Below, piece by piece: positions 3 to 1,811 of a stretch of 20,623 bases of DNA. This DNA comes from a virus: IMG/VR virus record IMGVR_UViG_3300020470_001783, positions 1 through 20,623 of that record. The stretch is one strand, 5' to 3'. The translations under genes were made by a program, and so were the position numbers. The notes below the pieces were generated by a model that saw only the letters and a program-made list of their open reading frames with translations, was not told where the DNA came from and did not search any database. Numbering within the stretch: position 1 is the first letter of the stretch; every line of letters starts with the position of its first letter.

Positions 3-77
3 TGGTGGGAGCGGTGGGGGTCGAACCCACGCTCTTCGGATTAAAAGTCCGCTGCCTTACCGCTTGGCTACGCTCCC
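3..77 (-). tRNA. tRNA-Lys (anticodon UUU), CCA encoded
   Basis: On the minus strand a full 75-nt cloverleaf can be folded by eye: 7-bp acceptor stem GGGAGCG/CGCTCCC, D-arm GCC..GGC, anticodon loop CTTTTAA (anticodon TTT), T-arm GTGGG-TTCGACC-CCCAC, discriminator A and encoded CCA. Anticodon and A73 both fit lysine. The anticodon stem has one mismatch at its outer end (G27/A43). The D-arm GCCAAGCGGTAAGGC is of the type seen in many bacterial tRNA-Gln rather than the GCTC..GAGC arm usual for tRNA-Lys. It sits last in the transcription order seen here, 6 nt after the stop of the 84..614 gene. Confidence 0.95.
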
Positions 78-722: not shown

Positions 723-932
723 TTACCTACGCCTTATCTCACTATTTAGGTAACGAATTGTGTCGGTTGTGTCAGTTTTGAACAAAAACGGAAAAATTGC
801 GTGAATAATTCCAACAATCCCTGTCCATATAAGCAAAACAGAAGTACTAATTGCAAAAGCAAAATGCTGTAAATAACTCATACTATTTGACTTCGGGTGA
901 TCCGTGAATGCCCCTAGAGCCTTCTTCAGCAT
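723..932 (-). CDS. Small membrane protein, DUF6356-like
   Basis: This is a 69-residue protein with the pattern HPKS...SYLQHFAFA (about residues 12-29), a hydrophobic segment (about 26-50), then HAIFPFLF (about 44-51) and a polar tail. That histidine-proline start, YLxHxxFA core and HAIxPFLF motif match my memory of the DUF6356 family, found in bacteria and in aquatic phages and lacking a firm function. It is preceded by AAAGGGG five bases before the ATG, a good Shine-Dalgarno. The first 50 nt overlap the end of the 883..1050 gene in another frame, implying translational coupling. It probably sits in the inner membrane. Confidence 0.75.
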   Translation of the reverse strand: MLKKALGAFTDHPKSNSMSYLQHFAFAISTSVLLIWTGIVGIIHAIFPFLFKTDTTDTIRYLNSEIRRR

Positions 933-1051: not shown

Positions 1052-1438
1052 TTACTCTGCCTTTGTCTCAACATTCGTAAATGATGCCAAGTCTTTTTCC
1101 AACTGTTGCATCGGGCGAGCACCAACAACACGGTCTTGCTCCTTACCGTCCACGAATACAACCATCGTGGGGATATTTGCGATGTCAAAACGCTCTTGCA
1201 ATAGAGGTGCTTTATCTACCTCAACCTTGATAACCTGAACTTCGTCAGCATACTTTGCGGCAAATTCGTCAAGAATAGGTGCCTGAATGTCACAGGGGCC
1301 ACACCAAGATGCCCAAAAGTCTACAAGTACAGGCTTAGACGCCGTGTTAATAATTTGGTCAAAATGCTTTTCCTCGACAGGCAAAGCAAATCCCTCTGCA
1401 AGTATTACTCTTTTTACGCTTTGTTCTTTACGAGCCAT
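1052..1438 (-). CDS. Thioredoxin-family protein
   Basis: This 128-residue protein contains the thioredoxin fold: an N-terminal extension of about 20 residues, then the strand PVLVDFWASWCGPC with the redox site CGPC (about residues 47-50), a long helix, and the cis-proline loop IANIPTMVVF (Pro about 90) opposite the active site. It reduces protein disulfides in the cytoplasm using host thioredoxin reductase. The B12-dependent ribonucleotide reductase in the same window carries a C-terminal cysteine pair that thioredoxins normally re-reduce, so the two may be partners (inference). The start ATG at 1438 lies 6 nt from a TATCAT -10 box with a TTGATT -35 box and has no Shine-Dalgarno, pointing to a leaderless mRNA. 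A nine-cysteine peptide gene lies directly upstream. Confidence 0.95.
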   Translation of the reverse strand: MARKEQSVKRVILAEGFALPVEEKHFDQIINTASKPVLVDFWASWCGPCDIQAPILDEFAAKYADEVQVIKVEVDKAPLLQERFDIANIPTMVVFVDGKEQDRVVGARPMQQLEKDLASFTNVETKAE

Positions 1439-1444
1439 GTATCT

Positions 1445-1473
1445 ATGATACCATCATAAACACAATAAATCAA
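1445..1473 (-). promoter_or_regulatory. Leaderless promoter for thioredoxin
   Basis: Minus strand reads TTGATT (1473-1468), 17-nt spacer, TATCAT (1450-1445), 6 nt, ATG (1438). This places the predicted +1 on the A of the start codon. An inverted repeat GTATC-ATA-GATAC spans the -10 box and the bases before the start (1451-1439). The -35 box begins immediately downstream of the stop codon of the cysteine-rich peptide gene. Confidence 0.8.
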
Positions 1474-1542
1474 TTACTCTTCCCAGCAACAACAACCACA
1501 GTTGCAGTCTTGGGTGCAAACACACACATCACATCCACACAT
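1474..1542 (-). CDS. 22-residue cysteine-rich (metallothionein-like) peptide
   Basis: This very short frame reads MCGCDVCVCTQDCNC and continues with Gly, three adjacent cysteines and Trp-Glu-Glu. Nine of 22 residues are cysteine, arranged as CxC, CxC, CxCxCCC. An AAAGGA Shine-Dalgarno stands 9 nt before the ATG, and the frame fits exactly between the upstream gene (stop at 1560) and the -35 box of the thioredoxin promoter. Such density of CxC motifs is typical of metal-thiolate peptides (Zn, Cu, Cd) and of fungal and bacterial small metallothioneins; a disulfide-exchange role beside thioredoxin is another possibility. Both are inferences, and I know of no named family for it. Confidence 0.6.
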   Translation of the reverse strand: MCGCDVCVCTQDCNCGCCCWEE

Positions 1543-1559
1543 TGCAATATGTCCTTTCT

Positions 1560-1811
1560 TTAACTTGTAGGGGGATCAGGGAACGTCACGGTTTCTGGAA
1601 TAGGAGTGCCTACTGTTGCTGGTAGGTCACGCAATGCTTGACGGTATGTTCTCCATTCCGTTTTTAATTCGTCTGACATGGGGATATCTGCCATTTGAGT
1701 CCAATCACAGGCTACTAACTGATGATCCCTTATTTGTCGCATCTTGTCGGCCCTATATACTTGCATGTCATTGGGGGTAACACTATCAGGTGGGCTTAAT
1801 AAAATATCCAT
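1560..1811 (-). CDS. Tail fibre assembly/chaperone-like protein (Phage_tail_APC type)
   Basis: This is an 83-residue protein with the core R(D)HQLVACDWTQMADIPMS...WRTYRQALRDLP (about residues 27-64), then a proline-rich end. The DWTQ..D.P motif followed by YRQALRDLP is characteristic of the small phage protein family annotated as tail assembly chaperone (pfam16778), commonly found directly after tail fibre genes. It is preceded by AAGGAG seven bases from its ATG and begins 10 nt after the stop codon of the fibre gene. The role is probably folding or attachment of the fibre, by analogy. Confidence 0.8.
   Translation of the reverse strand: MDILLSPPDSVTPNDMQVYRADKMRQIRDHQLVACDWTQMADIPMSDELKTEWRTYRQALRDLPATVGTPIPETVTFPDPPTS

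Follow-up and report, generated by a model that had tools for sequence, protein, structure and literature searches.

The stretch analysed here (hereafter the window) is a 20,623-nt, 20.6-kb IMG/VR fragment carrying a contractile-tail module, in which tape measure, baseplate and fibre genes come after a sheath gene closest to those of Gordonia and Arthrobacter phages, and which also encodes a ribonucleotide reductase of the B12-dependent type. Between a tail-fibre-assembly gene and a thioredoxin gene lies a very short open reading frame (Table 1), whose coding strand begins ATG TGT GGA TGT, ends TGG GAA GAG TAA, and spells Cys with both TGT and TGC. Its product devotes 9 of 22 residues to Cys in the layout CxC-x2-CxC-x3-CxCxCCC, and with three CxC motifs plus a CCC it has the very high Cys content expected of metallothioneins. 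The original prediction of a nine-Cys, 22-residue ORF with a Shine-Dalgarno upstream of thioredoxin agrees with what lies at the locus, and its statement that the frame fits exactly between two genes is a fair one, with 17 nt separating the end of the tail-fibre-assembly gene (1560) from the peptide start and 35 nt separating the peptide stop from the thioredoxin start (1438).

Table 1. Features at and around the nine-Cys reading frame, in window coordinates
Feature	Position	Strand	Remarks
tRNA gene	6-77	(-)	best phage matches annotated tRNA-Lys
Small putative membrane protein	723-932	(-)	69 aa
Thioredoxin (WCGPC), downstream of peptide	1052..1438	(-)	phrog_22
Sigma70-like promoter for thioredoxin, TTGATT-N17-TATCAT	1445..1473	(-)	starts directly 3' of peptide stop
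22-codon peptide gene + TAA stop	1474..1542	(-)	product MCGCDVCVCTQDCNCGCCCWEE, nine Cys
Shine-Dalgarno GAAAGGA	1552..1558	(-)	9 nt 5' of peptide ATG
Tail-fibre-assembly gene, upstream of peptide	1560..1811	(-)	phrog_4912, E 6e-19

Close relatives of the window (L002 and L003/L004) were retrieved via a scan for the thioredoxin and not for the peptide, and conservation of Cys in L003 and L004 is therefore not conditioned on the search. L002 has a thioredoxin identical to that of the window and a peptide with one change (Val to Ala), and the thioredoxin of L003/L004 stands at 84% relative to the window's. The L003 peptide reads MKECECEACVCTQDCNCGCCCWEE, with spacer and promoter retained, and follows a gene unrelated to the one upstream in the window, which by eye, not by profile search, resembles a 2-oxoglutarate oxygenase. 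A third phage of the window clade, L175 (sheath 81% identical), came from a second pattern scan; its peptide reads MCECETCMCTKDCNCGCCCWD, after which the contig ends, and its upstream gene differs again. The tail-fibre-assembly gene is thus swapped for other genes in relatives that keep the peptide, and a ribosome-binding motif persists 5' of the peptide start (GAGGGGG in L003, AAGGG in L175) despite the unrelated upstream genes.

Stop codons, frameshifts or loss of Cys in related phages had been named as signs against the original prediction; frame, stop and all nine Cys are kept in both L003 and L175. The 8 base changes between the window and L003 spare every Cys and create no stop with P about 0.016 under random substitution, as do the 13 changes between the window and L175 with P about 0.0006; part of the second half of the L175 peptide was in the search pattern, so that only its remainder is unconditioned. 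Furthermore, in comparisons among the peptide codons of the window, L003 and L175, pS lies at 0.35-0.6 vs a pN of 0.06-0.14 (pairs against L003 and L175: 0.52 vs 0.06 and 0.60 vs 0.14), all from short sequences, and the changes among homologues in related phages are mostly synonymous or conservative. On the evidence of the sequence, the window ORF is a genuine gene. A tblastn search with the peptide against isolate phages gave no match, although the low-complexity filter may hide one. At the DNA level, 33 of 35 bases of the thioredoxin spacer are the same in L003, and the ~80 nt at 1436-1515, which span the 3' half of the peptide gene together with the thioredoxin promoter, contain only 3 differences, while the thioredoxin DNA is 76% identical with synonymous sites near saturation (pS 0.82). 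This near-identity could stem from a recent exchange or from additional constraint on the DNA itself.

IMG/VR was scanned with the start-anchored pattern ATG-C-x-C-x2-C-x-C-gap-C-x-C-x-CC, which demands 8 Cys. Peptides of 19-27 aa terminating directly past the pattern were found on 73 of the 74 matching contigs, the one other being a chance match whose stop falls inside the pattern. Outside this count, pattern matches in L007 and L008 were also dismissed as chance. Seven further peptides, for instance MNCDCKECNCGASCDCTCCNC and MKPCTCPKCPCGTSCDCDCCGC, have one or two added residues 5' of the first Cys. The collected set comprises 59 distinct DNA sequences encoding 52 distinct peptides, mostly 19-22 aa long. 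Exactly nine Cys are present in 51 of these 52, in three spacings distinguished solely by the middle gap and by CCC vs CCxC. Because a Cys pattern served to retrieve much of the family, conservation of the eight pattern Cys is conditioned on the search; the ninth lies outside the main pattern, and its constancy is unconditioned evidence. Outside the Cys positions, N, E, K, G, D, T, S and Q account for nearly every residue. In the family as a whole aromatic and hydrophobic residues are few: about 1150 residues include a single Tyr, a single His and four Trp that belong to the window clade, which carries one Trp together with Val/Met/Ala. A comparison of 188 close pairs gave a pN/pS of 0.21, rising to 0.5 when only the non-Cys codons are counted.

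That such frames are not genes at all, merely chance or low-complexity TGY repeats, has some appeal in that many TGY-repeat tracts match loose Cys-spacing patterns; when used without a start codon, these patterns were swamped by such tracts in the virus and genome collections and were abandoned. We nevertheless hold this explanation to be extremely improbable, given the frame conserved in L003 and L175, the clean ORFs behind nearly all start-anchored matches, and simulated windows (first-order Markov, n=150) in which none of 28,489 ATG-ORFs of 15-40 aa had at least nine Cys, the maximum being 8. In addition, the nine-Cys feature recurs independently of the window, and thus is not a product of chance. 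Judged from sequence, these peptides are a previously unrecognised family of about 50 distinct ultra-short, nine-Cys members in several unrelated virus lineages. The expectation that gene callers would miss the peptide is well supported by the conservation, the nine-Cys architecture, the composition and the family itself, a widespread viral gene family that was overlooked because its genes lie below the usual gene-calling limits. No match to the pattern occurred in 1168 bacterial genomes (three groups of 386, 397 and 385), a small sample; ten family peptides matched no Pfam profile at E <= 10, with queries so short that HMMER may miss them, and a PDB sequence search with the family returned no match.

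Clustering of neighbouring genes, combined with profile searches, defines at least five genomic settings with differing neighbours. In the first, the window clade, the peptide adjoins thioredoxin. In the second (group B), it lies near a holin gene at several loci and upstream of a FAD-type enzyme, a thymidylate-kinase-like gene and the terminase, and a Shine-Dalgarno is not recognisable in many members. In the third (group C), it is found directly 3' of, or near, an SbcC-like recombination gene, and in the fourth (group A), it lies between the genes of two proteins without known function, 1 nt past the one of 289 residues and about 15 nt ahead of the one of 136 residues. In the fifth, a Gp23-like capsid gene, or else a different large gene without known function, is close to it. 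Flavobacterium phage immuto, in whose record a T4-like Gp20 is listed, has a terminase 58% identical to the one of group B, and groups B, C and the fifth setting may be related T4-like viruses; among the matches inspected in the nearest group B isolates (immuto and Microcystis phage Mel-JY01), no family member was recognised. Neither a transporter nor a regulator of metals was noticed next to the peptide.

These settings bear directly on the suggestion that the peptide works with thioredoxin and the B12-dependent reductase. It would then be rich in dithiols/disulfides and serve the phage thioredoxin as a substrate or partner, buffering or relaying electrons to ribonucleotide reductase, which suits the adjacency of the two genes in the window, L002 and L003/L004 and the reductase gene on the same contig. 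However, this adjacency is limited to one clade, in which thioredoxin has a promoter-like site of its own (9/12 consensus matches, TG before -10; the sigma70 consensus alone is weak, because the region shows 7 such sites vs 3.8 expected), and other members adjoin SbcC, the FAD enzyme or genes without known function. Moreover, the nearest thioredoxin relatives lacking the peptide (L130 and L131, 61% identity) carry, by eye, a terminator and a promoter where the peptide would be, and thioredoxin is encoded on 4 of 9 long peptide-bearing contigs and absent from 5, which may be incomplete. The flanking stretches examined of the more distant thioredoxins L132-L166 held no Cys-rich short ORF preceded by a Shine-Dalgarno, and the tail-fibre region of L472, a baseplate relative (sheath 70%), lacks both thioredoxin and peptide. 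Peptide-less relatives, varied neighbours and the contig count lead us to reject thioredoxin partnership as a general role. The clustering of CxC and CC motifs also points to metal thiolates more than to a single relay site, and a redox function of this kind seems unlikely.

The main rival reading, which we disfavour, is a cysteine-responsive attenuator, in which the Cys codons of a leader peptide would stall the ribosome at cysteine scarcity and so tune the next gene. WhiB proteins are encoded by G001 and G002, the two members of the clade whose contigs are longer, and among the control genomes WhiB occurs in Corynebacterium only, so that the host of the window phage is probably an actinobacterium; the attenuator deserves weight because short ORFs of the required kind exist in mycobacteria. 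Polycysteine leaderless short ORFs are reported to act there as attenuators (Canestrari 2020, via PMC9031893), and they resemble the window peptide in being short, Cys-rich and 5' of another gene, with a probable actinobacterial host on the phage side. Unlike them, the peptide belongs to a phage gene with a Shine-Dalgarno (present in the window, L003 and L175, so that a leaderless start is not required), its Cys are interspersed and not solely contiguous, and its downstream gene is not fixed. The near-identity of the ~80 nt shared with L003 would suit an attenuator, as would the hairpin and strong terminator that come after the peptide in group B; in L396 and L405, however, another gene intervenes, which makes the hairpin and terminator part of the operon end or of the next gene. 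In the window, no terminator lies between peptide and thioredoxin, the folding is unremarkable (z -0.9), and the promoter-like site follows the peptide stop. Elsewhere the next gene varies by setting and often starts within about 20 nt, leaving no room for a terminator, and what follows is thioredoxin, the FAD enzyme, SbcC-linked or function-unassigned genes instead of an operon for sulfur or cysteine metabolism. A leader peptide would need neither a fixed spacing nor a constant number of Cys, nor any polar bias at the other positions, and we regard attenuation as improbable.

With moderate confidence, we favour the reading that the window encodes a separately translated 22-residue thiolate-cluster peptide, a member of the family and most likely a minimal metallothionein. 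The original prediction spoke of a metallothionein-like or redox peptide, possibly partnered with thioredoxin and the B12-dependent reductase: the metallothionein-like character is well supported by conservation, nine-Cys architecture, composition and family, and the partnership is not supported. Nine Cys in ~20 residues, mostly as CxC and CC with single polar spacers, form the architecture of a metal-thiolate cluster, from which we infer metal binding like that of known metallothioneins. The fixed layout CxC-x2-CxC-x2/3-CxC-x-CC-x0/1-C would fold around three divalent ions or a small cluster of Cu(I) (at least Cu4); for comparison, mammalian metallothionein has a beta domain that, likewise with nine Cys, takes up three divalent ions or about six of Cu(I). 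Produced in the late region beside tail or lysis genes, the peptide might hold Cu(I) or Zn(II), or buffer thiols, during the dismantling of the infected cell. Gene-like conservation, a fixed number and layout of Cys, a metallothionein-like composition and independence of any one neighbour are what the sequences show; translation, the choice of metal and a benefit to the phage are inferred, along with metal binding itself. The Val and Trp of the window peptide, unusual for metallothioneins, count against this reading, as do the missing Pfam and PDB matches, the retrieval of much of the family by Cys pattern, the want of any noticed metal-related neighbour and the unrecognisable Shine-Dalgarno of many group B members. 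Alternatively, a peptide binding Zn or an iron-sulfur cluster could act as an adaptor on a specific protein, such as host RNA polymerase, a virion tail part or a defence protein, and not in metal homeostasis. Phages use many tiny host-takeover proteins, and in several settings the gene has tail or lysis genes around it, but the family lacks the hydrophobic or conserved non-Cys surface needed for protein binding, its non-Cys positions varying among polar residues, and we give the adaptor only a slight chance.

Compared with known systems, the putative phage metallothioneins share their Cys-richness with the bacterial metallothioneins SmtA/BmtA and MymT, which are metal-binding proteins of prokaryotes; SmtA employs His ligands. 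Unlike these, the phage peptides are far shorter, match no Pfam family and are almost wholly devoid of His. In the marine environment, BmtA of Synechococcus banks zinc (PMC9337993). The fungal Cu-thioneins of Neurospora crassa and Agaricus bisporus, with 26 aa and 7 Cys once the shortest reported (PMC4755600), are likewise very short and CxC-based, with polar or small residues among the Cys, whereas the phage peptides have nine Cys in mostly 19-22 aa, another layout, no detectable homology, and putative metal binding. The CCC motif of the window peptide and of group C also occurs in the fungal-IV metallothionein of Yarrowia lipolytica, where all three of its Cys are reported to join a Cu4Cys8-9 cluster (PMC13107397), although that protein is longer, eukaryotic and has a Cys-free N-terminal part.

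If they bind metal, the phage peptides would be shorter and more Cys-rich than the fungal proteins of 26 residues that used to be regarded as the minimum, and would reveal phages as manipulating the trace-metal or thiol pools of their hosts. Literature searches found no paper on phage metallothioneins. Many of the source IMG data sets are presumably ocean surveys. We put forward, as a proposal whose prospects we judge evenly balanced, that uncultured marine phages of several lineages, whose hosts range from actinobacteria to probably Bacteroidota, possess the smallest known metallothioneins that are genetically encoded, nine-Cys peptides of ~20 residues made late for Cu/Zn capture and possibly a phage-specific route for ocean trace metals. 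As a 20-residue peptide can be synthesised, the claim of metal binding is directly testable.

Several further observations concern the neighbourhood of these genes. The gene for the 69-aa putative membrane protein also lies 3' of thioredoxin in L003 (78% identical) and in L130/G004 (41%), and since it follows thioredoxin even in this otherwise different phage, the two look like a conserved pair. WhiB-like regulators are phage-encoded on G004 as well as on G001 and G002. An Rfam search yielded nothing beyond the tRNA. Separately, more than 20 group B loci (L399, L394, L403, L412, L423, L453 and about 20 more) share a conserved RNA-like element 5' of the FAD-enzyme gene, situated between it and the peptide or the gene that follows the peptide. 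Its 5-bp stem varies on both sides (GUCCG/CGGAC, GACUG/CAGUC, GCUCG/CGAGU, GUUCG/CGAAC, GUCUG/CAGAC and AACUG/CAGUU) around an invariant loop, AUUCAUAGC, and is followed by a strong intrinsic terminator; four of the loci gave no match in Rfam. Finally, L481 (LR756508), a 484-kb uncultured phage, has an ORF of ~50 residues that carries a Cys-rich tail, CSSTCDCSEDDSSCKCENCSC, at its C terminus and may encode an independent Cys-rich peptide.
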